A DNA stretch of 37,692 nt from Candidatus Wallbacteria bacterium (GCA_028687545.1 JAQTZZ010000036.1:1-37692), one strand, 5' to 3'; counted from the stretch's first letter, positions 1-33,255 are shown. Program-made: numbers and translations. Notes: generated by a model from the letters alone, not told the origin.

Positions 1-526
1 CACGGGCCATTTTTTCTTCTTCCTTGGCAGAGATCATATCAGCCACAGTGTCAGCCTTTTCCTTTTTCAGCTCTTCCACCTGCCTCAGCAACTGCTGCAG
101 GTTGAGCTTGTGCTCCTGCAGATTCTTGCCATACGCGTTCACATTGGCTTCCAGGTCCGCAATCCTGGCTTCCTTTTCCGCCAGTGTAGACTTGATGTCA
201 TTGTATTCCTGCATCAGGGATACATACTCATCGCTTTCAGGTGTGCAGCTCTTCGCTTCTTCCACGATTGCTGACAGCTCTTCCTTGGATTCCTGGATTT
301 CCTTGGTGAGTTTTTTCAGATTCTGCAGGCTTTTTTCCCGCAGGACTTCAATCTGGGTCACTGCATTGATATACTCGTCGATCCGGCCTTTCTTATCCCT
401 GATGATCTCGTCGTACTTGAGTCCGACGACTCCGGGTCTGTTCGTAAATTCATCAGTGAATTTGTTGAATTGCAGGGTGACCAGATATCCCAGCGCCCTG
501 AAAAACTTGCCTAATGCTCCAAACAT
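1..526 (-). CDS. PspA/IM30-like coiled-coil protein, C-terminus cut by window edge
   Basis: The visible part is 175 residues, read on the minus strand from an ATG at 526. A GGAGAA ribosome site sits just upstream. The N-terminus (MFGALGKFFRALGYLVTLQF) is an amphipathic helix like the membrane-binding helix of PspA/IM30/Vipp1. The rest is almost continuous charged heptad-type helix, running off the window edge. PspA-family proteins polymerise on the inner membrane and counter membrane stress; that role is inferred here from helix plus coiled coil, not from a diagnostic motif. It is the last visible gene of a minus-strand run in which the exported STN-like protein lies only 32 nt upstream, so the two are probably co-transcribed. 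A divergent member of the family or another coiled-coil membrane-remodelling protein remains possible. Confidence 0.7.
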   Translation of the reverse strand, partial: MFGALGKFFRALGYLVTLQFNKFTDEFTNRPGVVGLKYDEIIRDKKGRIDEYINAVTQIEVLREKSLQNLKKLTKEIQESKEELSAIVEEAKSCTPESDEYVSLMQEYNDIKSTLAEKEARIADLEANVNAYGKNLQEHKLNLQQLLRQVEELKKEKADTVADMISAKEEEKMAR

Positions 527-558
527 GTGTTCTCCTTCCGGATAATATAAAGTCGGCC

Positions 559-1122
559 TTAATAAAGATAAACAGCATCAGTGTCGATTTTAATCCTGAT
601 CCCGCTCTTTCCGCAGAATTGTTTGAGCAATTCTTCCAGAGAAATTTTCTCAAAAGAAAAATCAATGGCAGTTTTAGCGATGGCAGGAGTGAGATAGATC
701 GGGAGTCCGGTGTTGGTGTAGGTAGAAAGGAATTCCTTCAGCGTCCCTTTTTTCTGGATACCTGTCTGGCCGGTCAGGGCTTTTTTCAGAAGTGCTTCCT
801 TGTCGTTCAATACGACATTATCAAGTTTGCGGACTAACCGTCTCATATTCAGTTTTTTGTCAAAGAGCGTCAGTTCATCAGTGGCGACAGTTAAGGCTTC
901 GAGTATCTCATTGGAATCCCGTTCCCTGAAGAGAGTATATTCATTCTGCTCCACAAACAGAATGCGGCCGTACTTCACTCCGTCCAGATCCAGGATGCCA
1001 AGATATTCAATTCTTGCAGGCCTGGGTGCCGTCACAGGGGTGATTGGAGCCACTTCAGAGGTCCCTTCAGCAAACAGCGGACACAACTGAAGCAGCAGTA
1101 TGGTCAATAGAATTTTCTTCAT
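559..1122 (-). CDS. Small exported protein with STN-like C-terminal segment
   Basis: This encodes 187 residues. I chose the ATG at 1122 rather than the in-frame ATG at 1143 because a strong GGGAGGG site precedes 1122 and the signal peptide (MKKILLTILLLQLCPLFAEG) begins there. The central region is charged and unrecognised. The last ~39 residues (AIDFSFEKISLEELLKQFCG, then GIRIKI) resemble the STN fold found at the N-terminus of secretins and TonB-dependent receptors: hydrophobic strand, LxxLL helix, strand. In those families the domain faces the periplasm and makes protein contacts. Here it stands alone at the C-terminus with no secretin channel, so it is probably a soluble periplasmic adaptor. 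It lies between the two-TM coiled-coil gene and the PspA-like gene on the same strand with short gaps. The STN call is from pattern only. Confidence 0.65.
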   Translation of the reverse strand: MKKILLTILLLQLCPLFAEGTSEVAPITPVTAPRPARIEYLGILDLDGVKYGRILFVEQNEYTLFRERDSNEILEALTVATDELTLFDKKLNMRRLVRKLDNVVLNDKEALLKKALTGQTGIQKKGTLKEFLSTYTNTGLPIYLTPAIAKTAIDFSFEKISLEELLKQFCGKSGIRIKIDTDAVYLY

Positions 1123-1182
1123 GATCCCTCCCGTTTTTTTCACATTTTATATCATGTCGAATGGATTTTCAAATGAAGCAGT

Positions 1183-1911
1183 TTACGCTTTCCGCTTCCT
1201 GCGGATCCCTTCCCCTTTTTTCAATCCTTCCATCTCCAGATCCACCTTTCTGGCAATCTCCAGAGTATCCGCCAGATCATTGTTCAATTCCACGAATTTC
1301 TCCTCGTCTTCACCATCCATTGCCAGCAGTTTGGTCAGACTGTCCCTGAGATTCTCCACTGTCTGCCCGATATCGCCGATGATCCGCTCCCGCTGGTCCC
1401 TGATCACTTCATAAGCTTTTGAAGCAGGATCCAGCAGCCTGAGTTCATCTCTCAGATTCAGGTTAGTCCTCAGCTGCCCGACGCAATGATCATAGAGCTC
1501 GTTCACGTTGTAGGTGATGGATGAGATTTTCTTCTGGCAGAGAGCTTTGTCGTTCAACAGTCTGTTCAGGTTCCGCAGTTCGCAAAGCAGATTTTCATCG
1601 CGGGCGTCGTTGTCCTTGCGCAGTTCCTGATCCAGTATGTCCAGTTCATGTTCTTTCCCTTCAAGTTCTTCAGTCCGCATGTCTTCAAAGACCCGTTCAG
1701 CGAATTTAGTGCTGGAGAGCAGATTCATGCCAAACATTCCTGACCCGATGATCAGGCTGCCAAGACCCAGAAAAGTCACCACAGGTTCTCCCACATTGAA
1801 ACCCCACTGCAGAAGAAGCAGGCTCAATCCTCCGAGTGACGGATACAGGCTCGCAGGTTCTGCCATGATCCTCAGGAACACTCTTTTGCGGAAATCCTTG
1901 TCATTAAACAT
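1183..1911 (-). CDS. Two-TM protein with long cytosolic coiled coil
   Basis: This is a 242-residue protein with no family I recognise. The start at 1911 follows a GGTGAAGGTG stretch about 8 nt upstream. After ~20 polar residues there are two closely spaced hydrophobic segments (roughly residues 22-38 and 44-66, the second rich in Gly: FLGLGSLIIGSGMFGMNLL). The remaining ~170 residues are highly charged helix with heptad character, ending in a basic tail (RRKRKA). Such a hairpin anchor plus coiled coil suits a membrane partner of the PspA-like protein encoded two genes downstream, but that is inference from context. The gene ends 60 nt before the STN-like gene. It begins 185 nt after the upstream SBP-OmpA gene, across an octamer-repeat hairpin, so it may start a second transcript. 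Confidence 0.7.
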   Translation of the reverse strand: MFNDKDFRKRVFLRIMAEPASLYPSLGGLSLLLLQWGFNVGEPVVTFLGLGSLIIGSGMFGMNLLSSTKFAERVFEDMRTEELEGKEHELDILDQELRKDNDARDENLLCELRNLNRLLNDKALCQKKISSITYNVNELYDHCVGQLRTNLNLRDELRLLDPASKAYEVIRDQRERIIGDIGQTVENLRDSLTKLLAMDGEDEEKFVELNNDLADTLEIARKVDLEMEGLKKGEGIRRKRKA

Positions 1912-1951
1912 TTAGAAAACACCTTCACCAGAAAACTGTCATTTTGCAAAA

Positions 1952-2058
1952 AAGTTGGTAAGTTAGTAAGGTGGTAAGTTTTTAAGAGGAGAAGGCGTCG
2001 CTTGAACTATTACAATCTTATAAACTTACTAACCTGCCAACATACTAACATACCAACC
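1952..2058. repeat. Octamer repeat array (GTTRGTAN), two opposing arms
   Basis: The left arm (1952-1985) reads as consecutive 8-nt units GTTGGTAA, GTTAGTAA, GGTGGTAA, GTTTTTAA. The right arm (2019-2058) reads the same way on the minus strand (GTTGGTAT, GTTAGTAT, GTTGGCAG, GTTAGTAA, GTTTATAA). The opposed arms could fold into a long imperfect hairpin in the gap between the 526-aa SBP-OmpA gene and the coiled-coil gene. Related arrays occur at 8109-8247, 26860-26895 and 35576-35602. Confidence 0.75.
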
Positions 2059-2096
2059 ACATGCAGTGAATTCCCGTCTCATGCTGCACAGTCCGC

Positions 2097-3677
2097 CTAA
2101 TACGCCATCTGAAGAAGTTCAAAGGTCACGGACTGGGCCGAACCTCCAGTGCCGGCAGCAGGTTCAGCGCCGATCGACCTGAGCCTCTGTGGAGAAACCC
2201 CGTGCTGTTGCAGATAATCAGCCGCAGCCTTTGCCCGGTTTGAGGAAAGTGCCAGATTGGCGTCTCTGTCGCCTATGGCCATCGAATGCCCGACGACTTT
2301 TAAATAGTAATAGGGATAAGTTTTCAGCCGCTCCGCCAGATTGTCGAGATACAACCTTGAACTGACTGTGATTTCAGCATTTCCCCTGCCAAAGGCAATC
2401 TGTTCCACCCGCAATTCTCCCAGTGTTACCAGTTGAGACCATTGTTCATCAGTAAGTTCCCTGAGCGGTTCCTGTTCTGCGAGAATTTCCTCAGAAGATG
2501 AAGTGCCGTCTGCTACAATGTTGAGCTTTCTGGCAGGATGAAAATTTTCCTGCTGCAGGCTTTTCAGGCACCCGTCAAAAAAAATAGTGGCAACATTACC
2601 CTGAGTGGGGTCTTTGCTTATCCCATTGGTCTGGATTAAAACACCGGTGATGTTTCTGATCATATCCTCAAGGTGCAGCAGGCTGGTCTTTTGTTTAAGG
2701 ATTCCAAAATGCGCGTAATTTTCCAATGTGTTTTTCCAGCTGATCTTCCTGGAGATTACAATGGCTTGATCACGGGTCAGGGGCTGGTTCTGATTTTTTG
2801 CGTCGTGCACAAGCAGGTCGGTCAGTAAATCCGGTGATGACTGGTAATGGTAGAGAGCCTTGAAATATGACTTGAGAAGATCATTGAGCAGATCCGGCTC
2901 ATTGATCAAAAATTTCCGGTTGGCGATCAATACATCCACGATATAACCACGCACTTTGGATGAGTCAAAGAGAATCTGGATTGCTGAGTTTTCCAGGGCT
3001 TTTGAGACATATGGTTCCCAGAGGACATAAGCTTCTTTCCGGCCGGGGTTTTGGCTCAGTTTTTTATAAACGTCTTCTGCTCCATTGGCTGTTTCGTACC
3101 ATTTTGCAGAAAGCAGAGGGAGATTGAAATCAGCCTTCAGAATCCTGGCCAGGGTTTCGCTCGGTGAATCAGGAGTGAAGACAAATTTCACGCCCGGATC
3201 GTTCAAATCAGGCAGAGCAGGAATGGTTGATTTATAGGAGACAATGGCATCCGCGCCTACAGTCTCGTCAATCACTGCAATAATGGAGCCGGGAAAGTCT
3301 CCCCCTGTCACAGACGCGGATTTGATGTATGCGTCAATCGTGAATACCGCCAGATCAACCTTGCCATCCCTGAGCATTTCTATTCTTTTCTGATAATTCG
3401 CCTCATCATTTTCAAAGGACAGCAGCACACCCTTGGAAGACATTTCCTTAAAAACATCTTCCGAGCGCAGTACCGCATATCCGAGAAATGAATCGTGGGC
3501 AATTCTGATTTCTTTTCTGTAGATAGATTTTGTCGAGGTTTTTTCCACAATCTGCGAATTGAAATAGGGCATGATAAATTTTTTTCCAGCCAGAGCCAGA
3601 GCTGCAATCATCAGAAACAGCACAAAAATTTTCCCGATCCGTTCAGCAGATCGGTCGGAACTTCCTGAAGGGTTCAT
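2097..3677 (-). CDS. Membrane-anchored substrate-binding-protein/OmpA fusion, OmpA motifs degenerate
   Basis: This encodes 526 residues. ATG 3677 overlaps the upstream VWA stop codon (ATGA) and has GGGAGGG five nt before it. One N-terminal TM (about residues 16-34) anchors it with the bulk in the periplasm. Residues ~55-300 look like an NMT1/TauA-type periplasmic binding protein (KEIRIAHDSFLGYAVL; KVDLAVFTIDAYIKS; SETLARILKADFNLP). Residues ~420-526 are OmpA-like (RVEQIAFGRGNAEI; LALSSNRAKAAADYL). The usual peptidoglycan-contact motif GHxD reads GHSMA here (H464), and the usual C-terminal Arg region (RRVEF) reads SVTFELL, so diaminopimelate binding may be lost. It contrasts with its paralogue at 4572-6422, which keeps both. 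With no permease nearby, a sensing or structural role is more likely than import. Confidence 0.8.
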   Translation of the reverse strand: MNPSGSSDRSAERIGKIFVLFLMIAALALAGKKFIMPYFNSQIVEKTSTKSIYRKEIRIAHDSFLGYAVLRSEDVFKEMSSKGVLLSFENDEANYQKRIEMLRDGKVDLAVFTIDAYIKSASVTGGDFPGSIIAVIDETVGADAIVSYKSTIPALPDLNDPGVKFVFTPDSPSETLARILKADFNLPLLSAKWYETANGAEDVYKKLSQNPGRKEAYVLWEPYVSKALENSAIQILFDSSKVRGYIVDVLIANRKFLINEPDLLNDLLKSYFKALYHYQSSPDLLTDLLVHDAKNQNQPLTRDQAIVISRKISWKNTLENYAHFGILKQKTSLLHLEDMIRNITGVLIQTNGISKDPTQGNVATIFFDGCLKSLQQENFHPARKLNIVADGTSSSEEILAEQEPLRELTDEQWSQLVTLGELRVEQIAFGRGNAEITVSSRLYLDNLAERLKTYPYYYLKVVGHSMAIGDRDANLALSSNRAKAAADYLQQHGVSPQRLRSIGAEPAAGTGGSAQSVTFELLQMAY

Positions 3678-4558
3678 TTTCGCCCTCCCATTTTACGGAA
3701 AAGATACATGAAAACAATGATCATGAAGACTACGGCCCAGGGATTATCTTCATCGACTTTCCGAACCTGTTTGCCGGGAGAACTGCCTGACCCGGGCTGG
3801 TCACTTTTTTCTGAATTTTCAACAGCTGCATTCTCTCCGATCGGTTCGTTGCCGCTCACACTCAAACTCTTGACGATTTCCCTGGCCAGCTCGTCAGGCA
3901 GTGGGGCAATGGATGCGAAAGCCTCCTGCAGGGAAGCAGTGTCTGTCCCGCCGCCCACTTCGGCGAAGACTTCCCTGATCGCATTTTTCAATTCCTCGGG
4001 ATTGTCGGCTGTCCGATAGGAATGTGCTGAATTTGCCAGGATATGCTTTGCTTTCATATCAACGCCGATCACGTCGATCGTGATGCCCTTGCTCAGGATG
4101 TCGGGCAGATATTTTTTCACCACTTCCGGTGTGGTGGCTTCACCATCAGTCACGATCAGCATTTTGAATGTTCCATATCCGTTCTGGAGCTTTCTCTGTT
4201 CCAGCAGCCTGTCAGCCCCGATTTTCATATATTCACCGAGGGGAGTGTTTCCGTATGGTTTGGGGAGATCAATTGCAGCCATCAGCTTCTGATTGTCTTT
4301 AGGCCCCAGTTCAAAGATCCAGTCCTTGCAATTACCCGCTGAAAATACCAGCAAACCGATATTTGTAGTATCGGGAATCGTAGGCAGAACCTGTTTGAGG
4401 GCGTCTTTGGCGACCTGAATTTTGACACCGCCCTTCATGGAATCATTCATGGATCCTGACGCGTCCAGCACGATCACCACATTATCTTGATATGAACCGC
4501 CAGCGTTGGCACAGAAGGAAAAAAGCAGGAAAACTGCCAGCAAATGGTTTCTGGTCAT
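3674..4558 (-). CDS. Exported von Willebrand factor A protein with C-terminal TM anchor
   Basis: This is a 294-residue protein. I preferred ATG 4558 over the in-frame ATG 4582: GGAGG lies directly before 4558 and the signal peptide (MTRNHLLAVFLLFSFCANAG) starts there. The VWA domain spans about residues 25-205 with a complete metal site: DASGS (D32, S34, S36), a Thr in GNTPLG (~T105) and Asp in VTDGEA (~D138). A Ser/Gly/charged linker follows, then a single TM (AVVFMIIVFMYLF) and a basic cytosolic tail, placing the VWA domain in the periplasm. The gene lies 13 nt after the upstream SBP-OmpA stop and overlaps the downstream SBP-OmpA start by 4 nt, so all three are very likely co-translated. 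VWA domains bind partner proteins through Mg; the partners may be the two flanking fusions. Confidence 0.85.
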   Translation of the reverse strand: MTRNHLLAVFLLFSFCANAGGSYQDNVVIVLDASGSMNDSMKGGVKIQVAKDALKQVLPTIPDTTNIGLLVFSAGNCKDWIFELGPKDNQKLMAAIDLPKPYGNTPLGEYMKIGADRLLEQRKLQNGYGTFKMLIVTDGEATTPEVVKKYLPDILSKGITIDVIGVDMKAKHILANSAHSYRTADNPEELKNAIREVFAEVGGGTDTASLQEAFASIAPLPDELAREIVKSLSVSGNEPIGENAAVENSEKSDQPGSGSSPGKQVRKVDEDNPWAVVFMIIVFMYLFRKMGGRK

Positions 4559-4571
4559 CCATCCTCCAGAT

Positions 4572-6422
4572 TTAGAAGTCAAAATCAGTATCTTTCGTAA
4601 CTTCGCTGGAAACTTTGACCAGCCTGAATTCCACCCGCATGTTAACCTGGGCTTCTCCCTTGTCCTTCGGCTTGGGGATGATGGGCTCCCTGATTCCCAC
4701 TCCGATCGGCGTGATCTGCGATTTGTCTATAGCCAGCCCCTTTTTCTCCGCGAACTTTTCCAGTGCTTTGATCACTGACTCTGCTCTCTGCCTGGACAGA
4801 TTAACGGCAGCCTGCATCGTGTCGCGCGGATTGGATTCAGGTACCCCATCGAAAGCTCCGGACATGATTGAGTCGATCAGATTTTTTGTCTGTGAAAGAT
4901 CCAGCACTTTGCCGTTCAGGTAGTAAGTGTAGTTTCCAGAGGAGCCGGTTTTCTGGATGATCCCCTTTTTCAGGCCTGCGTTGATTACATTGAGAAGCGT
5001 GAGAGTCGGATCCGAGTGTCCCCTCACAGTCATGATCGCACCGGCGAACTTGCTGGCCTGGGTGATTGCCTTCTGAAAATCCTGGCTGTAGGCAGCTTCT
5101 GAAAATTCGGTCTGATTGGGCTCGAAATTGATGGTGAAGGTCAGAAGCGTATTCTCGTCTAGAGTCCCTTCGTTCAAGGCCAGAACCTGTTTTTCCACGG
5201 CTTCAGCATTGAACTTCTCCCTGTTGGTGAGTTCAGCCGCTGTCTTGATGGTAGAAAGATTTTCCTTGAAAATTTTGGAATCATAATCCAGTCCGGAAGG
5301 AAAAAAACCGGATTTTGTCCTGGCATAGCCAAGTTTCAGAGCGAGATTGAGGGATTTCTCATGGAAAGCATCAAAACCGTTGAGATTGTTCTTTTCCGTG
5401 AAAAAGACCACGTTTCCAGGGTGACCGACGAAGCTGCAGTCTGAAATCAGCCCGTGCACGTCATCGAGAGTTGGGAACCAGTCCTCGCCGTAAATCTTCT
5501 GCGCCATTTTTAGAATTGCAGTGTATTCGGGGCTGCCGGACTTTTCATAGATTTTCATCAGTTTAACCAGTTCTTCGCAGGCCATCAGATAGCCTGCCAC
5601 GAATTTTTCCACAAAGCTGAAATTGCTCTTGTAAAAATCATCCCTGAAGCCATAGACATCTGCGATCGAGCGGGACAGCTGCTTGGTGCTCATCAGCACC
5701 CGCGCCCCTTTAACAGTACCTTCAGCTCCTGAACCGGTGTTTTCGACTCCTCCTGTCAGGCCGGTGACATCCGGGCTGATTACAAAGGCGCCGTCAATGC
5801 TCGGGTCGTTCCTGAATTTGCTGGCTGGATAGGTGTTGTCCTTGATCCCAGGTCCTGATCCCAGATTGTCCACCCAGACTACTTTGATATCGTCCCAGGT
5901 CAGTCCGGCAGACTCCAGGACGTCGTCCAGCATTCCGACGTGGGGTCCTTCTTTCTGGAGCACGAATTTCTTGCCTTTCAGGTCATTCAGATTTTTGATG
6001 CCTGGTCTGACCACGAGATTATCGCCCCCTGTAGACCAGGTGAGCTGCATCACGACATGGGTTTTAGTTTTCTGGTTTGCTCCGATTGTCTCAGAGCACA
6101 TTCCTATCATCTGGAATGTGCCTCTCAGAGCCGGTGTTTTCCCGGCCAGGTATTCCTTCACCTGTCCGATGAAATCATCGCCCGGAAAGAGTTCGATGTC
6201 CAGTCCGAGCTTTCCGAAAATGGAATCTTTGGTGGTGGTCAGTCCGCCATTCGCATAAAAAGTGGCGATGTCGCCGCCCCAGGTGATGTATGGGATCCTG
6301 ATTCTGCCGGATGCAGGGGAGTTACCGACAGTCACAGGACCGACCAGGCTGTCAAAGGTATCAGCGCCAGCTGCCAGGCAGAGCAGCAGGCTGAAAATTA
6401 ATGTGTATGTCTGCTTTGTCAT
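4572..6422 (-). CDS. Secreted substrate-binding-protein/OmpA fusion
   Basis: This encodes 616 residues, with GGAGAG upstream of ATG 6422 and a cleavable signal peptide (MTKQTYTLIFSLLLCLAAGA). Residues ~40-340 resemble NMT1/THI5-type binding proteins (IRIPYITWGGDIATFYANGG; LNDLKGKKFVLQKEGP; FVEKFVAGYLMACEELVKLM). Residues ~420-605 form an OmpA-type peptidoglycan-binding domain (TINFEPNQTEF; RGHSDPT with H469 and D471; LSRQRAESVI; MRVEFRL with R596), interrupted by an insert of ~60 residues after GHSD. The Asp and Arg that grip the wall peptide in OmpA proteins are both present, so it is probably a wall-tethered periplasmic binding protein. It heads the tight three-gene unit SBP-OmpA, VWA, SBP-OmpA. 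No import genes are nearby, and the ligand cannot be read from the sequence. Confidence 0.82.
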   Translation of the reverse strand: MTKQTYTLIFSLLLCLAAGADTFDSLVGPVTVGNSPASGRIRIPYITWGGDIATFYANGGLTTTKDSIFGKLGLDIELFPGDDFIGQVKEYLAGKTPALRGTFQMIGMCSETIGANQKTKTHVVMQLTWSTGGDNLVVRPGIKNLNDLKGKKFVLQKEGPHVGMLDDVLESAGLTWDDIKVVWVDNLGSGPGIKDNTYPASKFRNDPSIDGAFVISPDVTGLTGGVENTGSGAEGTVKGARVLMSTKQLSRSIADVYGFRDDFYKSNFSFVEKFVAGYLMACEELVKLMKIYEKSGSPEYTAILKMAQKIYGEDWFPTLDDVHGLISDCSFVGHPGNVVFFTEKNNLNGFDAFHEKSLNLALKLGYARTKSGFFPSGLDYDSKIFKENLSTIKTAAELTNREKFNAEAVEKQVLALNEGTLDENTLLTFTINFEPNQTEFSEAAYSQDFQKAITQASKFAGAIMTVRGHSDPTLTLLNVINAGLKKGIIQKTGSSGNYTYYLNGKVLDLSQTKNLIDSIMSGAFDGVPESNPRDTMQAAVNLSRQRAESVIKALEKFAEKKGLAIDKSQITPIGVGIREPIIPKPKDKGEAQVNMRVEFRLVKVSSEVTKDTDFDF

Positions 6423-8108: not shown

Positions 8109-8247
8109 ATGTTGGTAGGTCCGTAGCTGTACAAAATCCGCAGAACGGATTTTGAAACAGCTTCGGATAGGTTAGTAGGTTAATAAATATTTCCGTATTT
8201 CTTCAACATACCAACATACTAACCTACTGACATACTAACTACTTAAC
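8109..8247. repeat. Octamer repeat array (GTTRGTAN), arms interrupted by a hairpin
   Basis: The left part holds GTTGGTAG (8111) and, after an interruption, GTTAGTAG GTTAATAA (8171-8186). The right part (about 8203-8247), read on the minus strand, is GTTAAGTA, GTTAGTAT, GTCAGTAG, GTTAGTAT, GTTGGTAT. The right arm supplies the last codons (LSS) and the TAG stop of the ABC ATPase gene. The arms are opposed and can pair. Confidence 0.7.
8123..8164. repeat. GTAG-headed hairpin nested in octamer array
   Basis: After GTAG at 8123, AGCTGT (8125-8130) pairs with ACAGCT (8157-8162) and CAAAATCCG (8132-8140) pairs with CGGATTTTG (8146-8154) around a CAGAA loop. The hairpin splits the octamer array, as though it had inserted there. 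Confidence 0.6.
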
Positions 8248-8891
8248 TTTCCATCTTTCAGCTCTAATATTCTGCTCGCGAAACCATCGAAAGCCTTGCT
8301 GTGCGTTACGATTACGAATCCGGTTCCTCGCTCCTGCCGGCTTTTTTTCACAAGTTCCACGATCTTTCTTTCATTCACCTGGTCCAGGCTGCCTGTCGGT
8401 TCGTCGCAGAAACAGATCAGAGGCTCATGGATCACGCTGCGGATAAAGGCGATCCTGGAGCGCTCGCCGCCGGACAGCATCCTGACATGCTGCCTTGCTG
8501 TTTCCTGGGTAATCCCGGTTTTTTCCAGGAACACCCTCGCCATTTCCTTCCAGTGCTTCTCCTTGAATTTTCCGGACACCGCAAGTGGCAGATAAAGATT
8601 TTCGTAACAATTCAGATCTTCCATCAAAAACAGATCCTGGAACAGAAATCCAAATTTCTGTCTGCGGACTGCATCCCATTTTCCCCGGGAAACTTCGGTA
8701 TCCTCTATCAGGATTCTCCCTGAATCCTGAGCTTCCAGCAGAGATAATAAATACATCAGCGTGCTCTTACCGGCTCCAGATTCACCTTTGACCAGCAGAA
8801 TTTCACCCCTGCTGATTTCCAGTGAAACATCTTTGATAACGGATTTTGATCCGTATGTTTTGCAAATACTTTCAGCTTTTATCAATATCAT
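8235..8891 (-). CDS. ABC transporter ATPase, LolD/MacB-like, without adjacent permease
   Basis: This 218-residue nucleotide-binding subunit has all expected motifs: Walker A GESGAGKST, Q-loop FLFQDLFLM, signature LSGGERSRIAFIRSV, Walker B LICFCDEPTGSLD and H-loop VTHSK. The length and DEPTGSLD sequence place it in the LolD/MacB/FtsE group, which drives mechanotransmission or lipoprotein and drug export rather than import. No permease or MacA-like gene is beside it, so its partner must be encoded elsewhere or has been lost. The start at 8891 lacks a clear ribosome site. The final residues KLSS and the TAG stop are encoded inside an octamer repeat array, suggesting the original C-terminus was altered by repeat growth or insertion. 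Confidence 0.9.
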   Translation of the reverse strand: MILIKAESICKTYGSKSVIKDVSLEISRGEILLVKGESGAGKSTLMYLLSLLEAQDSGRILIEDTEVSRGKWDAVRRQKFGFLFQDLFLMEDLNCYENLYLPLAVSGKFKEKHWKEMARVFLEKTGITQETARQHVRMLSGGERSRIAFIRSVIHEPLICFCDEPTGSLDQVNERKIVELVKKSRQERGTGFVIVTHSKAFDGFASRILELKDGKLSS

Positions 8892-12111: not shown

Positions 12112-13782
12112 ATGAAATTATACATTATTCTGATTTCAGGAATCTTTATCTTCGCAGAGGGATGCGGCACCAGGCAGGAAATCTCTATGCAACCCAAAGA
12201 GATCTTCCCGTCCGTTTCTAACGTTTCAACCCAGACCTCTGAAACCAGTCTCTCTCCAGCTTATGGAGATTCCCTGATTGAAATCTATCTATCAGACGCT
12301 GTCACTCTGAACCCAGTGTTAATCGCTGACGTTCCTTCCAGAAGAATTTCCCAGCTGATTTTCGGAAGCCTGGTGAAGGAAAGTCCATACTATGACATTC
12401 TTCCGGATCTTGCTGAAACCTGGGAAACACGGGCCGATGGAAGAGCCATTACTTTCCATCTGCGCGATGGAGTCAAATGGCAGGATGGTGTTCCTTTTTC
12501 TGCAGATGATGTCAAATTCACTTATGAAAAAATCATGGATCCCAAAACTCAGACCTATGTCAGGGATGATTTCACACTGGTGAGCACCGTTGAAGTGCTG
12601 GACAGGCTGACTCTGAGAGTAGAATATTCCGAACCATTCGCTCCAGCGCTCTGCGGCTGGACAATCGGCATCATACCAAAGCATCTTTATGCCAGTGAAG
12701 AGATCAACAGCTGCCGCTACAACAGGGCTCCGATAGGAACCGGTCCCTTCAGATTCGTGGAGTGGAAGCCTCAGGAGCAGATCATCCTGGAAGGAAATCA
12801 GGACTATTTCGGAGGCCGTCCATACCTCAACCGATATATCTGCAAAAACATCCCTGACCCTTCCATGGCTTTTCTCTGCCTGTTGCGCGGGGAAGCGGAC
12901 ATGATGGAACTGACTCCTGACCAGTATGTGAAAAAGGCCAATACCGGTGATTTTTTAAGCAGATTCAATGTCTACCGCTATCCCTCTACTTTATATACCT
13001 ATCTCGGATTCAATCTGACCAATCCGCTGTTTTCCGACAAGTCTGTCCGCCAAGCACTTACGATGGCCGCTGACAGGCAGGCGATCATAGATAATGTCCT
13101 CTATGGCATGGGAATGGTTCTTTCAGGTCCCTTTCCTCCTTCTTTCTGGGCTTACGACAATACGGTCAAGCCTCTTCCCTTTGACATTGAAAAATCAAGG
13201 GCATTGCTTTCAGAGGCAGGGTGGAAAGATCTGGATGGAGATGGAATTCTGGAGCGCGGGGGTAAAAAGTTCGATTTCGAGCTGGTCACAAACAACGGCA
13301 ATGAAATGCGCAGACTGGCCGCCAGTCTGATCCGGGATGACTGGAAGAAAATCGGCGTGAATGTACGCCTGAAATTCGTGGAATGGGGCGTGCTGATGGA
13401 TGTCTGCGATTACAAGTCCTTCGATGCACTGATCATGGGCTGGTCACACCGGACTGATCCTGATCCGTTCAGCCGTTTTCATTCCTCAGTGATCCCTGAC
13501 AAAGCGAGGGGATTCGTAGCCGACAATTTCTGCTCATATATTAACCCTGCAGCAGACAAGCTGATGGTGGAAGGCAGAACCACCTTTGAGCTTGAAAAAC
13601 GCAGGAAAATCTACCATGAATTTCACCGGATCATCAGCGAAGACCAGCCTTATGTCTTCCTTTTTTCGCAGGATACCATCATCGCGGTTTCCAACAGAGT
13701 GATGGGAATCGAAGTGGCACCCGCTGGAATCAGATACAACATCCAGGGATGGTATGTTCCAAAACAGTTTCAGAAGTATTGA
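12112..13782 (+). CDS. Family-5 (DppA/OppA-type) peptide-binding lipoprotein, copy 1
   Basis: This 556-residue solute-binding lipoprotein starts after GGCAGGAAGA and has a lipobox at FAEGC. It has the SBP_bac_5 layout: SDAVTLNPVLIADVPSRRIS near the N-terminus, LAETWETRADGRAITFHLRD GVKWQDG, then FTYEKIMDPKTQT, IGTGPFRFVEW and FSDKSVRQALTMAADRQAII. An acidic DLDGDG loop (residues ~375-380) is typical of the family. Such proteins capture oligopeptides or similar ligands for a two-permease, two-ATPase importer, none of which lies in this window. The gene is followed after 53 nt by a paralogue that aligns along its whole length, a tandem duplication. Confidence 0.93.
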   Translation: MKLYIILISGIFIFAEGCGTRQEISMQPKEIFPSVSNVSTQTSETSLSPAYGDSLIEIYLSDAVTLNPVLIADVPSRRISQLIFGSLVKESPYYDILPDLAETWETRADGRAITFHLRDGVKWQDGVPFSADDVKFTYEKIMDPKTQTYVRDDFTLVSTVEVLDRLTLRVEYSEPFAPALCGWTIGIIPKHLYASEEINSCRYNRAPIGTGPFRFVEWKPQEQIILEGNQDYFGGRPYLNRYICKNIPDPSMAFLCLLRGEADMMELTPDQYVKKANTGDFLSRFNVYRYPSTLYTYLGFNLTNPLFSDKSVRQALTMAADRQAIIDNVLYGMGMVLSGPFPPSFWAYDNTVKPLPFDIEKSRALLSEAGWKDLDGDGILERGGKKFDFELVTNNGNEMRRLAASLIRDDWKKIGVNVRLKFVEWGVLMDVCDYKSFDALIMGWSHRTDPDPFSRFHSSVIPDKARGFVADNFCSYINPAADKLMVEGRTTFELEKRRKIYHEFHRIISEDQPYVFLFSQDTIIAVSNRVMGIEVAPAGIRYNIQGWYVPKQFQKY

Positions 13783-13835
13783 CCTCCTTTTTGCTTACCT
13801 GCCCTGAATCTGTTAAGCTGTTTTGCGAGGCGGGA

Positions 13836-15512
13836 ATGAATAGATTATTCATAATTCTGGCAATTTTTGTTTATTTTTTAATCGGGTGTTCCAAAGATGT
13901 ACCACCCTCTAACCCACAACCTCAACTGCCTCCTCCAATTGAGCAGACTGTCGAAGTCAAGGAAGACACTATTTCCCTGTCTCCGGAATACGGTGACACG
14001 CTAGTCCGGGCTACTTTTGCTGATGCGGTAATCCTGAATCCGATCCTGACTCCAGACGTTCCGTCCGGAGTGATTACCGACCTCGTTTTCAATGGTCTTC
14101 TCCGTGAAAATGAAAACCTCGAACTGGAACCGGATCTGGCAGAAAAATACATTGTCAGCAAGGATGGACTTGAGCTCGATTTTGTGCTGAAAAAGGGCGT
14201 GCGCTGGCACGACGGTGTTGAATTCACGGCTGAAGACGTCAAATTCACCTATGATAAAATCATGGATCCAAAAACCCAGACTTATGACAGGGAAAGCTTT
14301 GCATTGGTAAAAACCCTGGAAGTAATAGATCCCTATCGCGTGAAAGTTATTTATTCCAAACCTTTTGCCCCGGCTCTCTATGCCTGGGAGGAAGGCATAA
14401 TTCCCAAGCATATCTATGAAAAAGATGATATCAACACCAGTAAATACAATCGCTGTCCGGTCGGTACTGGTCCATTCAAATTCGTGGAATGGTCTCCTCA
14501 CGAGCAGATCCTGCTGGAAACCAACAAGGATTATTTCGCGGGAAGGACATATCTGGACCGTTTTATTTTCAAAGTGATTCCTGACCCCACGATGTGCTTT
14601 CTTTCCCTTCTCAAAGGTGAGGCTGACATGATGCCTCTGACTCCTGACCAGTATAAGAAACAGGCTCAGTCTGCTGAGTTTCTTGACAAATTCGATGTCT
14701 ACCGTTACCCGAGTGACGCCTATAGCTACCTTGGATTCAACCTCACCAAGCCCATTTTCCAGGATCAGCGCGTGCGCCAGGCTCTCTCTTACGCCACAGA
14801 TAAGAAATTGATCATCGACGATATCCTGTACGGCTATGGCCAGGCAACCAGCGGCCCGTTTATCCCTTCATCCTGGGCCTATGATAAAAGCATTGCACCC
14901 TATCCGTTTGACCAGGAGAAGGCCAGGAAACTGCTGACTGAAGCGGGCTGGACAGACAGGGACGGGGACGGCATACTGGAACTGAATGACCAGAAGTTCA
15001 TCGTCACCATCACGACCAATAAGGGCAATGAGACCAGGAAGCTTGCAGGGAGCCTGATCCAGAGCCTCTGGGAAAAAGTCGGGATCAAAGTCAACCTGGA
15101 GATCGTGGAATGGGGAGTCTTCAACGACCTGCTCGACTATAAAAAATTCGATATCGCCTTCCTGGGCTGGGGCGACCTGACCGGAGATCCTGACCCGTAT
15201 TCCATGTGGCATTCTTCGGCAATCACAGATAAGGAAAAAGGCAAGGTAGGCGACAATTTCACCTCATACAGCAATCCGGAAGTCGACAAACTCCTGGAAG
15301 AGGGTAGGACCACCTTTGATCTTGAGAAGCGGAAACAGATCTACCATAAATTTCATGCGATCATCGCTACGGAACAGCCCTATATTTTCCTATTTGTCGC
15401 TGACAACATCTATGCGCTGGACAAACGCATCCACGGCATCACAGTGGCACCTGCAGGCATCACATACAATCTGGAAAAATGGTATGTGCCCAAGGGAATG
15501 CAAAAATATTGA
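13836..15512 (+). CDS. Family-5 (DppA/OppA-type) peptide-binding lipoprotein, copy 2
   Basis: This encodes 558 residues. The reading frame is open from 13749, but ATG 13836 is chosen because GAGGCGGGA immediately precedes it and the signal peptide with lipobox (FVYFLIGC) starts there. Whole stretches match copy 1, for example FTYDKIMDPKTQTY, GTGPFKFVEW, GEADMMPLTPDQYKK, AGWTDRDGDGILE, LEEGRTTFDLEKRKQIYHKF and VAPAGITYN. The near-N-terminal proline-rich linker (PPSNPQPQLPPP) differs from copy 1 and may act as a lipoprotein tether. Ligand-pocket differences between the copies suggest diverged specificity. It probably shares a transcript with copy 1. A sigma70-like promoter begins just after its stop codon. 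Confidence 0.93.
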   Translation: MNRLFIILAIFVYFLIGCSKDVPPSNPQPQLPPPIEQTVEVKEDTISLSPEYGDTLVRATFADAVILNPILTPDVPSGVITDLVFNGLLRENENLELEPDLAEKYIVSKDGLELDFVLKKGVRWHDGVEFTAEDVKFTYDKIMDPKTQTYDRESFALVKTLEVIDPYRVKVIYSKPFAPALYAWEEGIIPKHIYEKDDINTSKYNRCPVGTGPFKFVEWSPHEQILLETNKDYFAGRTYLDRFIFKVIPDPTMCFLSLLKGEADMMPLTPDQYKKQAQSAEFLDKFDVYRYPSDAYSYLGFNLTKPIFQDQRVRQALSYATDKKLIIDDILYGYGQATSGPFIPSSWAYDKSIAPYPFDQEKARKLLTEAGWTDRDGDGILELNDQKFIVTITTNKGNETRKLAGSLIQSLWEKVGIKVNLEIVEWGVFNDLLDYKKFDIAFLGWGDLTGDPDPYSMWHSSAITDKEKGKVGDNFTSYSNPEVDKLLEEGRTTFDLEKRKQIYHKFHAIIATEQPYIFLFVADNIYALDKRIHGITVAPAGITYNLEKWYVPKGMQKY

Positions 15513-20886: not shown

Positions 20887-23800
20887 CTATTCGCCGACCT
20901 TTAACATGAAACTTTCGGAATGGCTCGAGAATTCAGGTGCATACATGCACTGGATATTGGCGATGCCGGTCTGGTATTCGCCTTTCAGCTGTACCCGCAG
21001 GCTGTATTCGAATACGTACGTTCCCTTGGGCAGGTAATCGATGAAGAAATCCGTGGCAGTGTCCCTGGTGGCTTCGTAGTAAGCCAGGCCGTCCTGGTAC
21101 TTATACTGGGAAAGCACGTTTTCAGGCTCAGTGCCTGATCCGCGCATGTCGCGCAGATGCACATATTCCATGTCGCGGTCAGTCCTCAATTCGATCCTGA
21201 TCTTGAGCCTGTCACCCACTTCCAGTTTATCCCCGTCCTTGAACGGCTCGATCACTTTGCCGGACTTGGTGTCCCGTTCCACGAAAACCGCCTTGTGAAG
21301 CTTCAGATTCGTCTCGTGCGGGGTGACCTTGGTCATGTCTTCCAGATAATGCCAGTGGCAGCCGCCCCAGGCTATGCCCTTGTCCTCCTTCACCACTTCG
21401 ATATCTCCGAAATTGGATTTGACTTCAGAGCCGGAATAGCGCTTTTCATAGAATCCAGTGCCTGCTTCCACTGAGACGGGAACCACAGGTTCTCCACCCA
21501 GCTTAACTGTCACGATCTTGTCTGATGCGAGCAGATTCGTGCCGCGCAGCAGCAGGGCATAAATCGCATCAGCCGTAGCTTTGGTGGTTTTCCAGTCCTG
21601 GGTCTGCTTCTGCTTCAGAAGCCAGACCTTGCAGTCTTCCATGGATTTGTCGTCTTTGGCCACTTCATCGAACAGTTCGATCATGATGGCCTGGGTTTCG
21701 ATCGGAGCCCTGTACCACCACCAGGAAAGCTCGGTTTCCCGCCAGTACATGCCAAGCTCTTCATCGGATTTGCTGCGTTCCCGGATCGAATTCACGATTT
21801 TCTGCGGAGTTTCTTTTTCCCCGAATCTGTTGAGAGCTAGAGCAAGCTGACCCTGTGACATGCGGCTGTCAAGCTGCAGCCAGTATTTCCTGGACTGTCC
21901 CATGAAATAATCAAATGCTTCTTTGGCGAAGCCAGGGATCTCCTTGTCCTTGAGGAAAAAGCTTCGTCCGTATAGATACATGGCTATGGTGGAACTCAGA
22001 TGATTTTCTTCCAGATGCCCATAACGCTTGATTTCCTCGTATGTTCTAACCAGCCAGTGATCGATGAAATCCAGTGCTTTAACCGCACAGGCAGTATCCA
22101 CCTTCACTCCTAGATGCTCCAGCCTGCCGAAGCCGGTTACAATGTACATGGTAATATATGCATCCGGCCTGCCGCCAGGGAACCAGGGCCAGCCCCCGTC
22201 CGAGAGCTGCATGTTCACAAGCTTGGACATGGCGCTCTGCAGCGAGGCCCTGGTGCAGTTATCATCGAACAGTACAGCGATCTTTTCCTTGGCCTGGGTT
22301 TCGTTCTTCGCCTCGCAGACCCAGGGAGTTTCCTGGAGCAGGACATTCTTCAGGTCCTGATTCTTTTCCAGGTTCGAAGTGAGAGTCTTGGTGCCCTTCC
22401 ACTGGTCGAAGATCCGCTTGATCTTGGGGTCTGAATTGGCGATGTAGGCTGCCAGCGCATTGGCGTACAGCCTGTTGAAGACCTGTTCCGAGCATTCGTA
22501 GGGGAATTCCATCAGGTAGGGCAGCGCCTGCACAGCATACCAGGACGGATTGGACGCCATCTGGACTGTATAATCGAGATTGACCAGTGTTTCGGATGTA
22601 GCGGACTCTGCGATCTTTTTGAACTGGAATTTCCTGCTGCCTGCATCCCTGATCCAGAGCGGAATCGATTCCCGCACTTCAATCCTGCGGGAGAGCACAG
22701 GCAGTATTCCCTCTTCCCCATCGGAGAATTTGTCGGTAGCGCCCACTACTTTATATTGCAGGGCTCCGATGTAATTGGGGACTTTGATCTTCCAGGAAAA
22801 CCCGAGCGACTGATTGCCAGGGATCGAGAATTTCTTCTCAGATTCGATGTTTCCGAAATCAGTATCCATTGAAGCAAGGCTTTCAGCATTTGCGAGGCTC
22901 AGTTTCACCACTCCTTCTGCGGTATCAGCGGTCATGTTTGTGACCTTGGCTGTGAATTCCAGGATGTCGCCTTCCCGCATGAAGCGCGGGGCATTGGGCT
23001 GCACCATCAGCTCTTTCCTGGTGACTGTCTTGCCGTTCAGCTGTCCTGACTTCAGATCAGTGGTATGAGCCATGGCCATGAATTTCCAGCTGGTAAGCGC
23101 TTCAGGCATCTGGAACTTGATGGACACCGCCCCGTCCTTGTCAGTGGTCAGCTGCGGGAAGAAGAAGGCTGTTTCATTGAGGTTTTTCCGGGCAGAAACC
23201 TTGCTCAGGTCCGGCTTAGGTGATTCGGGTCCGTTGACAGCTCCCTTGTCTGATGCGGTCCCTTCCTTTTTCTGTGCTTCTCCCGGAGCGGCTGAAGAAG
23301 GAGCAGGAGCCTGGGCTGCCAGCATGCTGTCAGAAGCAATTTCTTTCTCTTCCAACCTCCCGCCCGAGTCTTCTTTCCTGGCCATGCCTTTCATCTTCAC
23401 TGATCCCCGCATCATCTCGTACCCGAAATAATCCTCGGTCAGCTCATTGGAAAAGCGCCAGTATTCAGGTGTAAAGCCTGAAACATATGTGTTCCATTCG
23501 TTGTAGAAATTGTAGAAAGCTACCTGCTGATTCGTGAAAACCGGGAACAGGCTGCTCTGATGCAGCCGGAAGTAGTTTTTGAAATCCTGGAAGAAATGGG
23601 GATAGAAGGCATCCAGGGATTCATCATAGAGAGTAGCCACCATTTCCGCAGCAGCTGCCTCAGCTCCCGGTCCCTTGATTTCAACGCTCCATTCATCTTC
23701 CTGCCCTGGCTTGAGAACCGAGCGGAAGGTGGAAAACTTGAGAGACAGGTCTTTGTTGTCCCAGGGAACATTGATCTGGCGGGAAACGAGGTAAGCCCGG

Positions 23801-26800
23801 TTTTCCTGGACAAAGGTGGCATGGACAGTAAATCCGCCCCTCAGCTTCTCATCGATTCCCATGGTCAGGCGTCTCTGAGTCTCGCTCGCGTCTGTCCAGA
23901 ATTTCTGCAGGATTTTACCGTCCTGTTCGATTTCCAGATAGGCCTGTCCCTTGTCGTATCCGGTACCCCACACGAATTCCAGTGTGTCGCCTACCTGCAG
24001 GTTTTCGGACCTGACGCAGTCAAATGACGGCACTTTGACAGGAAATTTTTTGGCTCCTGCTGCGAACACAAGAATCGGGAGGGCTGTTTCTATTTTTTTG
24101 CCGAAAGGATCAGTTCCTGTCGCCACGATCGTGTATGCACCCGCCGGAAGCGCAAACTTCGTGCTGAAAGCTTTGTCTTTTTCCTTGGAAAAACCGGATT
24201 CACGCACGGATTCTCCCCGCTCCCAGAGCCGGTAATCGGACTTATTGGGCTCGTTCAGTTCCCTGTACCAGTAACTCCATTTGAAAAGTTGCGCTTTGAC
24301 CGGTTTTTCCGGTTCCAAGAGTTTATAGACAGTCAGTTTTCCTTCACAATCGGCACTCACGCCGTCCAGACTTGCAGCATTCAGATTCAGGTCGAACTGA
24401 TTGTCTTCCTCTAACCATTCAGTTGCCGAAAGAGTCAGTTCAAGGGCTGCAAAGCCGAGCCGCACTGATAGAGAGGCAGACCTTGTTTCACCCGCTGAAT
24501 CAGTGCAGTCTGCTGAGACAGTGTAAATAAAGGTGGGATTGTCTTTTTCCAGGATCAGAGGATCAGGTTTTGCGAGAAAGGTCACTGAGAAAGTACCGTC
24601 AGTTCCTGTTTTGAGCTTGCCATGGACGATCTCCTGCGCACCTGACTGAGGCAGGTCGAATCCCCACCAGTACCACCAGGAAGGCATCTGGGCCTGCCTG
24701 GTCACTTTGAACTTCACTGCTGCGGAATCGATGGGAGCGCCTGTGTATGCCAGTGCCTTCCCCTTCAGAGTCACCTGTTCGCCCAGTTTTCCCGCTTTTT
24801 CAGGCGGCGACATTTCCAGATAGAATTTGGGTCTCTTGTATTCCTCGACTCTGACCATGGCGGTGCCGGGAGGGCTGTCGGCTGATATGGACATCGCGCC
24901 TGTCAATCTGCCCGAGGGTGCGGTGAAGGTCCCGGTGAAGCTTCCGAATTGATTGGACTTGAAGGTACGCCGCTCTATCTCCTGATAATTAGCATCCCGG
25001 AAAACTACAGCTACCTGTCGTTCCGGAATAGTTTTGTATTCGTCGTTCTTCTGGTCAATGCTGAAGACTATGCCCTTGAAATAGATGCTCTGTCCCGGCC
25101 TGTAAAGAGAGCGGTCTGTAAAGAAAAGCACGCTTTCATAAACCGGTTTGTCTCCCAAATAGCCACAATAATAAGGACCACTGACCAGTTCGTCTTTTCC
25201 ATTTTTAACTAAAATCAGCAGCTCCCCGCGATCGCCGGGAGCGGTTGAAAAAATTCCATCAACACTGGTCTCGGTTTCCTTCCATTTTTTATACAGGCCG
25301 TTGCGGTCCCGCTGATAGACTGTAACAGAAGCCGATTTAAGCGGAGTTCCGCTGAGATTATCGGTCACCATGCCTTCCAGCAGTTCTTTCCGCGGCCTTG
25401 TGATCAGCCCCATTTTGCTGACCCAGAGGGAAGCGAATTTTACGATGTTGCCGCTCTGGATGAATTCAGGATTGTAGCTCGCTATCACCCGGTAATACCC
25501 TTCGCTGAGGGCCGGAATCTCCTTGATCACCATTTTTTTCTTGTAATCAGGAGTTGGTTCAAGCTTGCATTCCCATTCCAGCAGGGGCTTTTTTTTGAGG
25601 AGTTTCTCAGTCCTGTCATAGGCATAGTTTTCCAGTTCAGCCCAGCGTTCTTCAAGCACCTGTGCCCAGTCGTCAGCAACGACTCTGAAATAGATATGAT
25701 CACAGTTTCTGTATTCGATCTTCAGGCTGGAAGTGCCGGGAGGAACTATTTTTTCAGACTCTATATCCAGTTCCTTGGCTGTGATCCTTGAAATCAGCGC
25801 TGAACAGTTGGCAGCTCCAGGAGAGTCATGGTGAAGGTCTCTGCCAGAGACTGCAGTCGCATAAGCCTTGACATAATCGCCTTCCGAAAAGAGAAGTTCA
25901 GCGATCTGATAAAGAGCAGTGCTCGCAGGCGCTTGATCTTTGTATTCGGTCGCGATCACAGTGAGCCTTTCCATCAGCGTCTTGTCCAGGTCCTGTCCGC
26001 TGCCCTTGTTTTTAATGAACAGGAGCCGTTTGATGTCGTTGTCCACCAGACCTGGGATATTCCCGGACTGATTGTAGGCAAGCAGTTCCTGATAAAGCTT
26101 GAGTGCTTTAAGCAGCGGAGAATTGACATCAGTTGTCTGCGGATCAAATTTCAGGAATTTGTCAAGGTCTGCGAAAGCGTCAGAAGTTCCTTCCAGTACA
26201 AAAGCATCTTCAGGCTGGGCAATGCTCTGATCGTCAGCCTCATAGAACATCAGGGCTTCGGCAGCAGCAAAATCATAGAGCGTAGGGCGCAAAGCAGGGT
26301 CCATATTCCCTTTATCCAGAAACTTTGAAAAATCCTCTGTTTTGACTGTCTTCAGATATTCCTTCTGGGAAAGCACGTCTGTATATACTGCGTCGATTTT
26401 ATTGAACAGCTTTGGAAGATCCCAGGTGGTGAAATCAACCTCGTCCAGAGAAGCCGTAGCAGACCGCTGCAGAAATCTCCAGCGGTTGCGGCTATAGTAC
26501 TGCCAGAACCAGCGGGCCTGGATCAGTTCCAGAAGCTGTTTCACTCCCTGGGGAGCCTTGGTAATCTCTGCTTCAATCCTCGTGATTTTTTCTTCCGGAT
26601 GGTTCCCTTCAATATTGCTCTCCAGCACGATTCTGGTCGTGATCGCTCGCAGGGCTTCTACTCTGTCCCCTTTTTCAAGGGCCTGTTTTTCGATCTGCAG
26701 TAAAACTGTGATCGCCGATTTAGGCAGGCCATCCTTTTTAGCTTTCTCGACTTCATCCCAGAGACTCCCTGCGTTCAAAAGTTTGAAGTTAAACAGCACA

Positions 26801-26835
26801 AAAGCCAGCAAACACAAAATCGAGAGGTTCTTCAT
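20887..26835 (-). CDS. Bacterial alpha-2-macroglobulin family protein with thioester motif
   Basis: This encodes 1982 residues, longer than E. coli YfhM (~1650). AGGAGG precedes ATG 26835 and a type I signal peptide (LLAFVLFNFKLLNAG) follows; there is no lipobox, unlike many bacterial relatives. Residues ~25-370 are mostly helical and family-specific. MG-type domains follow, including FTDRSLYRPGQSIYFKGIVF (MG2 region). A low-complexity Ala/Pro/Ser/Lys/Glu stretch (~1145-1215) may serve as bait or linker, and next comes the conserved region ETAFFFPQL...LTSWKFMAMAH. The thioester motif is C-S-E-Q with Cys at 1448 (FPYECSEQVF), followed by the helical thioester domain (LSDGGWPWFPGGRPDAY). These proteins trap proteases that enter the periplasm. 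The usual partner, PBP1C, is encoded at the right end of this window on the other strand. Confidence 0.95.
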   Translation of the reverse strand: MKNLSILCLLAFVLFNFKLLNAGSLWDEVEKAKKDGLPKSAITVLLQIEKQALEKGDRVEALRAITTRIVLESNIEGNHPEEKITRIEAEITKAPQGVKQLLELIQARWFWQYYSRNRWRFLQRSATASLDEVDFTTWDLPKLFNKIDAVYTDVLSQKEYLKTVKTEDFSKFLDKGNMDPALRPTLYDFAAAEALMFYEADDQSIAQPEDAFVLEGTSDAFADLDKFLKFDPQTTDVNSPLLKALKLYQELLAYNQSGNIPGLVDNDIKRLLFIKNKGSGQDLDKTLMERLTVIATEYKDQAPASTALYQIAELLFSEGDYVKAYATAVSGRDLHHDSPGAANCSALISRITAKELDIESEKIVPPGTSSLKIEYRNCDHIYFRVVADDWAQVLEERWAELENYAYDRTEKLLKKKPLLEWECKLEPTPDYKKKMVIKEIPALSEGYYRVIASYNPEFIQSGNIVKFASLWVSKMGLITRPRKELLEGMVTDNLSGTPLKSASVTVYQRDRNGLYKKWKETETSVDGIFSTAPGDRGELLILVKNGKDELVSGPYYCGYLGDKPVYESVLFFTDRSLYRPGQSIYFKGIVFSIDQKNDEYKTIPERQVAVVFRDANYQEIERRTFKSNQFGSFTGTFTAPSGRLTGAMSISADSPPGTAMVRVEEYKRPKFYLEMSPPEKAGKLGEQVTLKGKALAYTGAPIDSAAVKFKVTRQAQMPSWWYWWGFDLPQSGAQEIVHGKLKTGTDGTFSVTFLAKPDPLILEKDNPTFIYTVSADCTDSAGETRSASLSVRLGFAALELTLSATEWLEEDNQFDLNLNAASLDGVSADCEGKLTVYKLLEPEKPVKAQLFKWSYWYRELNEPNKSDYRLWERGESVRESGFSKEKDKAFSTKFALPAGAYTIVATGTDPFGKKIETALPILVFAAGAKKFPVKVPSFDCVRSENLQVGDTLEFVWGTGYDKGQAYLEIEQDGKILQKFWTDASETQRRLTMGIDEKLRGGFTVHATFVQENRAYLVSRQINVPWDNKDLSLKFSTFRSVLKPGQEDEWSVEIKGPGAEAAAAEMVATLYDESLDAFYPHFFQDFKNYFRLHQSSLFPVFTNQQVAFYNFYNEWNTYVSGFTPEYWRFSNELTEDYFGYEMMRGSVKMKGMARKEDSGGRLEEKEIASDSMLAAQAPAPSSAAPGEAQKKEGTASDKGAVNGPESPKPDLSKVSARKNLNETAFFFPQLTTDKDGAVSIKFQMPEALTSWKFMAMAHTTDLKSGQLNGKTVTRKELMVQPNAPRFMREGDILEFTAKVTNMTADTAEGVVKLSLANAESLASMDTDFGNIESEKKFSIPGNQSLGFSWKIKVPNYIGALQYKVVGATDKFSDGEEGILPVLSRRIEVRESIPLWIRDAGSRKFQFKKIAESATSETLVNLDYTVQMASNPSWYAVQALPYLMEFPYECSEQVFNRLYANALAAYIANSDPKIKRIFDQWKGTKTLTSNLEKNQDLKNVLLQETPWVCEAKNETQAKEKIAVLFDDNCTRASLQSAMSKLVNMQLSDGGWPWFPGGRPDAYITMYIVTGFGRLEHLGVKVDTACAVKALDFIDHWLVRTYEEIKRYGHLEENHLSSTIAMYLYGRSFFLKDKEIPGFAKEAFDYFMGQSRKYWLQLDSRMSQGQLALALNRFGEKETPQKIVNSIRERSKSDEELGMYWRETELSWWWYRAPIETQAIMIELFDEVAKDDKSMEDCKVWLLKQKQTQDWKTTKATADAIYALLLRGTNLLASDKIVTVKLGGEPVVPVSVEAGTGFYEKRYSGSEVKSNFGDIEVVKEDKGIAWGGCHWHYLEDMTKVTPHETNLKLHKAVFVERDTKSGKVIEPFKDGDKLEVGDRLKIRIELRTDRDMEYVHLRDMRGSGTEPENVLSQYKYQDGLAYYEATRDTATDFFIDYLPKGTYVFEYSLRVQLKGEYQTGIANIQCMYAPEFSSHSESFMLKVGE

Positions 26836-29003: not shown

Positions 29004-29031
29004 GTATGGACGAACGGCTGTTCGCCCCTAT
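29004..29031 (-). repeat. GTAG-type hairpin variant overlapping a stop codon
   Basis: On the minus strand it reads TAGGGGCGAACAGCCGTTCG plus TCC, a hairpin with one mismatched pair. The TAG at its head is the stop codon of the transglutaminase-like gene ending at 29028. Confidence 0.65.
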
Positions 29032-33169: not shown

Positions 33170-33255
33170 TGAATTCCTCCTGTGGTTTGTTCTTGGGAGT
33201 AATATACTCGATTTGGTTGATAATTTCGAGCCCAAAAAATATAATTTAAAATCTG

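Follow-up and report, generated by a model that had tools for sequence, protein, structure and literature searches.

Operons that encode PspA/Snf7 homologues together with an AAA+ ATPase have been described by Ravi et al. (2024; PMC11237479, section 18). The longer of these operons also encode an ABC ATPase, a permease and a PBPB-OmpA fusion, as exemplified by OGG56892.1. In this operon type, the AAA+ protein has two AAA domains, of which the N-terminal copy is inactive, and a link between remodelling and transport is proposed (PMC11237479). Here we report that six genes at the end of a Candidatus Wallbacteria contig form the first half of a bacterial gene cluster that is widespread and uncharacterised, and that the contig interrupts midway. 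Leaving aside whether its own PspA-like protein is a PspA family member, the cluster is of the kind reported in that section. The original prediction, made from the DNA sequence, could not place the gene set in a named system. Since an arrangement of PspA/Snf7, AAA+, ABC transporter and PBPB-OmpA genes had already been reported there, it can be placed.

The DNA stretch analysed, hereafter the window, is 37,692 nucleotides long and is the whole of contig C36 from genome G000 (4.54 Mb, 108 contigs). The six genes are as follows.

4572..6422, minus strand: SBP1-OmpA, 616 aa; signal peptide/TM, SsuA/TauA/NMT1-type solute-binding domain and C-terminal OmpA-like domain.
3674..4558, minus strand: VWA protein, 294 aa; complete MIDAS metal site and hydrophobic C-terminal segment.
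2097..3677, minus strand: SBP2-OmpA, 526 aa; N-terminal TM anchor, SsuA/TauA-type solute-binding domain and OmpA-like domain.
1183..1911, minus strand: 2TM-hairpin coiled-coil protein (ccTM); orthologues in genomes G006 and G001.
559..1122, minus strand: STN-like secreted protein, 187 aa; FecR_C match below cut-off.
2..526, minus strand: PspA-like protein (putative divergent ESCRT-III type), residues 1-175; truncated at the contig terminus.

All six are consecutive minus-strand ORFs, as predicted. The SBP1 stop codon is separated from the VWA ATG (4558) by 13 nt, and the VWA and SBP2 genes overlap at an ATGA. Gaps of 185, 60 and 32 nt precede the coiled-coil, STN-like and PspA-like genes respectively. 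A promoter-like site (TTGAAA-17-TAAAAT) is found 5' of the STN-like gene, the number of such sites being not above chance. Hence, the six genes need not share one transcript. The features of the encoded proteins support the view that they span wall, periplasm, inner membrane and cytosol.

Both predicted SBP-OmpA fusions were recovered. For SBP2 the assignment is clear: the OmpA domain scores 47 bits (cut-off 27.2) and the solute-binding domain matches SsuA_fam (E=1.7e-8). An AF2 model of SBP2 was built from four sequences and is of moderate confidence (mean pLDDT 61.8). In Foldseek searches of the PDB the model matched an OmpA-type domain, SsuA and TauA (E ~1e-10 to 1e-11) and, over a range of ~1e-8 to 1e-11, SsuA, TauA and NMT1/Thi5 proteins. 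SBP1 matches NMT1 (23.2 bits, cut-off 20.5). Its OmpA domain carries an insertion and is sub-threshold (18.9), but SBP1 aligns with SBP-OmpA proteins from elsewhere in the phylum. Thus, a solute-binding domain fused to an OmpA domain, as in the operons of Ravi et al. (2024), is present. SBP1 orthologues occur in G001 (78%; locus L064), labelled Candidatus Wallbacteria and of the same family, and in G006 (65%; locus L065), labelled Candidatus Muiribacteriota. The phylum grouping of these two genomes also holds Riflebacteria and Ozemobacter.

The VWA protein matches VWA and VWA_2 with 44-45 bits. Its metal site was predicted to be intact, and this is borne out: the D-x-S-x-S/T/D residues of the MIDAS (D31, S33, S35, T104 and D137 in the numbering of a 13-sequence comparison) are invariant in all 13 sequences, which come from several phyla. 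Within the phylum, orthologues are confined to the genomes with this type of SBP1 (G000, G001, G006 and G020), where they score 224-239 bits (next-best, 93) and always adjoin SBP1. More widely, VWA is a recurrent partner, found at about 20 loci and in several operon positions. It can follow SBP-OmpA (e.g. L070, L096, L097 and L109), precede PspA (L098, L128 and L130) or follow AAA+ (L120). Literature searches for VWA proteins with PspA or TelA found nothing beyond Ravi et al. (2024), the main text of which mentions neither VWA nor TelA.

Orthologues of ccTM are present in G006 (34%) and, as a fragment, in G001. At other loci of the cluster there is a conserved gene, x290, encoding a TM hairpin and a coiled coil. 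This gene adjoins AAA+ at L039, L042-L047, L070, L096, L120, L128 and others. None of the x290 copies tested matched Pfam or NCBIfam significantly, and this conserved gene apparently represents an undescribed family. A search for x290 in G000, G001, G006 and G020 returned nothing. Profile similarity between ccTM and x290 is weak (P=6e-4 to 1e-3; controls P>=0.02), and the coiled-coil gene of G020 is closer to x290 (63%) than ccTM is. Hence, ccTM possibly takes the role of x290; the sequence comparison is only suggestive of true homology. The STN-like label rests on a FecR_C match (14.3 bits, cut-off 24.4; E=0.042), and no STN family was matched. We rejected this protein as a core component because a search of 36 other genomes of the phylum found no orthologue; the gene is a local accessory outside the conserved set.

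The PspA-like label draws on weak profile and fold matches, and not on the Pfam family. In a PDB profile search PspA ranked first (E=0.016). We modelled the G006 homologue with AF2 (pLDDT 78.7, pTM 0.47). The model has helices at 2-28, 31-97, 108-188 and 194-268; an N-terminal helix, amphipathic by hydrophobic moment, is followed by a proline and a long helical hairpin, which is the shape of PspA/IM30. The top six PDB Foldseek matches were all Vipp1 or PspA, with weak E-values (2e-3 to 1e-2). Unlike PspA/Vipp1, the bacterial ESCRT-III proteins of PF04012, the proteins of the window and of G006 have no match to that family (cut-off 33.9). The G001 protein reached 17.6 bits, and no PF04012 match was found in G000. 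As direct comparison with the PspA profile is weak (hhalign, 26%), we do not assign the window protein to the PspA family. We call it PspA-like and consider it probably a distant ESCRT-III-type protein, judging from the profile and fold matches, the model, and the clear PspA encoded within the cluster in G020 and in f5, the largest family of the phylum.

Contig C36 ends inside the PspA-like gene, the reading frame of which runs off at residue 175. The terminus of a second contig of the same genome, C75 (L060), encodes a matching PspA-like C-terminal stretch (SSDTTDQELENLRQVRAEQ...), in the correct strand and frame. No overlap between the contigs was found. Compared with the G001 and G006 proteins, the two stretches are ~5-6 residues apart, which places the contig break within this single PspA-like gene. 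We infer from this homology that C36 and C75 join there. The relevant features of C75 are as follows.

L060:12796-13032, minus strand: C-terminal part of the PspA-like protein, by homology to the G001 and G006 proteins.
L060:11469-12626: SBP3, after the PspA-like C-terminal part.
L060:2499-3302: permease.
L060:1557-2489: ABC ATPase; visual inspection shows Walker A, signature and Walker B motifs.
L060:2-1564: AAA+ protein, cut by the contig end.

The permease matches BPD_transp_1 with 54 bits, and its nearest family is TauC (105 bits, below cut-off). SBP3 comes closest to the TIGR03427 and SsuA families (putative urea and sulfonate binders) and reaches the cut-off of none. The locus thus combines an SsuA/TauA-type binding protein, a BPD_transp_1 permease and an ABC ATPase, the make-up of a NitT/TauT-type transporter. 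The AAA+ protein scores 51.5 bits for AAA in its C-terminal half, with a single Walker A at 344 and none in the N-terminal half. Across loci, 47 of 49 AAA+ proteins have one Walker A, which lies in the C-terminal half wherever its position was inspected. In G000, ~8 kb of unrelated metabolic genes (L060:3364-11390) separates SBP3 from the permease. By eye, these encode a DEAD-box helicase, a glycyl radical enzyme with its activase, and a cysteine-metabolism pair (cystathionine beta-synthase-like and gamma-lyase-like). The insert is missing from G006 and G001.

The finding that no permease or ATPase is present therefore holds for the window alone, and is an artefact of the contig edge. A LolD-like ABC ATPase inside the window (8235-8891) was considered as the missing ATPase and rejected; it lies beyond rtcB and scores best against bacteriocin-export/LolD ATPases. 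On the content of the window alone, and given the topology of the six proteins, the cluster could be taken for a transport-free device that couples wall to membrane, mechanically or through a ligand, and ends at PspA. That proposal finds no support and is very improbable, since the set runs on into permease, ABC ATPase and AAA+ genes on C75; all three adjoin in G006 and G020, as do permease and ABC genes in G001.

The neighbourhood search suggested by the original prediction showed that the set recurs, with PspA-family genes, in many phyla. On one contig, G006 encodes SBP1, VWA, SBP2, coiled coil, HD, NFACT-R, PspA-like, SBP3, permease, ABC and AAA+ proteins. The HD-domain and NFACT-R RNA-binding-domain genes (L033:3690-4722) lie between the coiled-coil and PspA-like genes. 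In G001 the genes are split between two contigs, the first with SBP1-VWA-SBP2-coiled coil and the second with PspA-like-SBP3-permease-ABC; a divergent methyltransferase-like gene precedes the PspA-like gene on its upstream side. Because of the two contigs in G001, and the ~8 kb insert in G000, we make no claim of co-transcription in these genomes. In G020 the genes form a tight nine-gene operon (AAA+, PspA, SBP1, VWA, SBP2, SBP3, permease, ABC, TM/coiled coil), in which neighbouring genes are -35 to 109 nt apart. The PspA encoded there reaches 62 bits against PF04012. The order in f5 is SBP-OmpA, PspA, SBP-OmpA, permease, ABC, x290, AAA+. At L071 the order is AAA+, SBP1, VWA, SBP2, 2TM coiled coil, TelA, SBP3, permease, ABC. 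Here TelA (PF05816, 121 bits) and the 2TM coiled-coil gene (L071:14004-16176) replace the coiled-coil and PspA-like genes between SBP2 and SBP3. Hence, PspA itself is not obligatory. The L071 record bears the label uncultured archaeon, possibly through a mistake in binning or labelling.

Scanning GTDB species genomes with the SBP1 alignment gave 367 SBP-OmpA relatives, and the loci of the best 80 were examined. The hits include a culturable planctomycete, Planctomicrobium piriforme (L141). Counts refer to the 56 of these loci that are at least 12 kb long; they use profiles grown from the loci themselves and have no random-locus baseline. PspA was found at 41 of the 56, permease at 50, ABC at 49, x290 at 45, AAA+ at 38 and VWA at 15. 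PspA, permease, ABC, x290 and AAA+ occurred together at 35/56, in many phyla. The counts agree across Planctomycetota, Acidobacteriota, Verrucomicrobiota, Elusimicrobiota, Armatimonadota, Myxococcota and Riflebacteria. Because gene order varies from group to group, a retained association is favoured over an inherited neutral order.

Adjacent permease and ATPase genes in homologues had been named in advance as the mark of ordinary importers. Such genes do adjoin in G006, G001, G020 and most loci, but the cluster does not look like an ordinary importer because PspA and AAA+ are frequent companions. The SBP fold is shared with SsuABC/TauABC importers, to which the permease and SBP3 are also nearest, below cut-offs. 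In contrast to those importers, the SBPs here are OmpA-fused and membrane-anchored, and have VWA, coiled-coil, PspA and AAA+ partners. The cluster could still be an ordinary NitT/TauT importer beside which PspA and AAA+ genes lie by chance, or serve just in general envelope stress. SBP3, the permease and the ATPase are typical of that class, and OmpA fusions could simply localise the SBP. We consider this improbable given the very compact G020 operon and the presence, across phyla, of PspA (41), AAA+ (38) and the TM/coiled-coil gene (45) among the 56 long loci.

Binding proteins that are both anchored to peptidoglycan and tethered to the membrane are unusual among importers. The cluster might therefore be a sensor, in which SBP-OmpA proteins detect a ligand or wall stress and signal through the VWA and TM/coiled-coil proteins to PspA and AAA+, with the ABC transporter as a signalling partner or secondary. 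VWA, TM/coiled-coil and PspA proteins would suit a relay, and the permease is 8 kb from SBP3 in G000. Against this, ABC and/or permease genes occur at 50/56 long loci, the ABC ATPase and permease can both be recognised as belonging to importer families, and in the clade of the window the PspA-like gene adjoins that for SBP3, a free binding protein such as importers usually have. A sensor is thus doubtful, though less so than an ordinary importer.

On balance, the cluster is likely to be a conserved envelope system in which a peptidoglycan-tied SsuA/TauA (NitT/TauT-type) ABC importer is coupled to a PspA/ESCRT-III-like protein and an AAA+ ATPase, which would serve in membrane maintenance and repair. 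What the sequences themselves show is which genes are present, their domain composition, the preserved nucleotide and metal motifs, the linkage and the recurrence across phyla. The importer would be part of a complex that couples the inward transport of its ligand to remodelling. SBP1 and SBP2, lying between wall and inner membrane and tied to peptidoglycan by their OmpA domains, would capture a small ligand. SBP3 would hand the ligand to the permease and ABC ATPase. Through metal-dependent contacts, the MIDAS-bearing VWA protein may hold the periplasmic components or gate them. The TM/coiled-coil protein may connect the transporter to the cytosolic face and, with the PspA-like protein, provide a cytosolic scaffold. 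The PspA-like protein is predicted to polymerise on the membrane at that face, and the AAA+ ATPase may remodel the polymer or scaffold.

The cluster shares with the operons of Ravi et al. (2024, section 18) the SBP-OmpA fusion, permease, ABC ATPase, one-Walker-A AAA+ protein, a putative PspA-type protein and clustering. It differs by its pair of SBP-OmpA genes on either side of a MIDAS VWA gene, its free third SBP and its very divergent PspA-type protein. New relative to the main text of PMC11237479 are the VWA partner, the doubled SBP-OmpA around VWA and the third SBP that accompanies them, the strongly diverged PspA-like protein and, at one locus, the replacement of the latter by TelA.

Other observations were made in the window. 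A defence-system reading was rejected, as PADLOC yielded coiled-coil and MotB-type noise alone. A tandem pair of SBP_bac_5 solute-binding proteins is encoded at 12112-15512, with no adjoining permease gene in the window. Two adjacent genes at 29028-33235 encode DUF3857 proteins; one of the two also has a transglutaminase core domain. A bacterial alpha-2-macroglobulin (20887-26835) and a transglycosylase/transpeptidase penicillin-binding protein (PBP1C-like; 35650-37692) are encoded ~9 kb apart; pairing of these two proteins is known in other bacteria.

A contig edge can make half a system resemble a transport-free novelty. How bacteria turn over PspA/ESCRT-III polymers, and whether they have a dedicated AAA+ partner for this, are questions that Ravi et al. 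(2024; PMC11237479) raise in passing. A cluster found in many phyla, with PspA, a dedicated AAA+ protein, a wall-anchored transporter and a VWA protein with a metal site, is a concrete system for testing polymer turnover, and the VWA partner and the TelA replacement offer further components that can be checked. More speculatively, and with a rather small chance of being right, the cluster may be a phylum-spanning bacterial counterpart of ESCRT-III/Vps4 that forms one machine with a wall-anchored ABC transporter, in which ligand capture by the SBP-OmpA proteins and metal-dependent VWA contacts control assembly of a PspA-type polymer by AAA+. If so, uptake of a nutrient or envelope lipid and membrane remodelling would be a single process.
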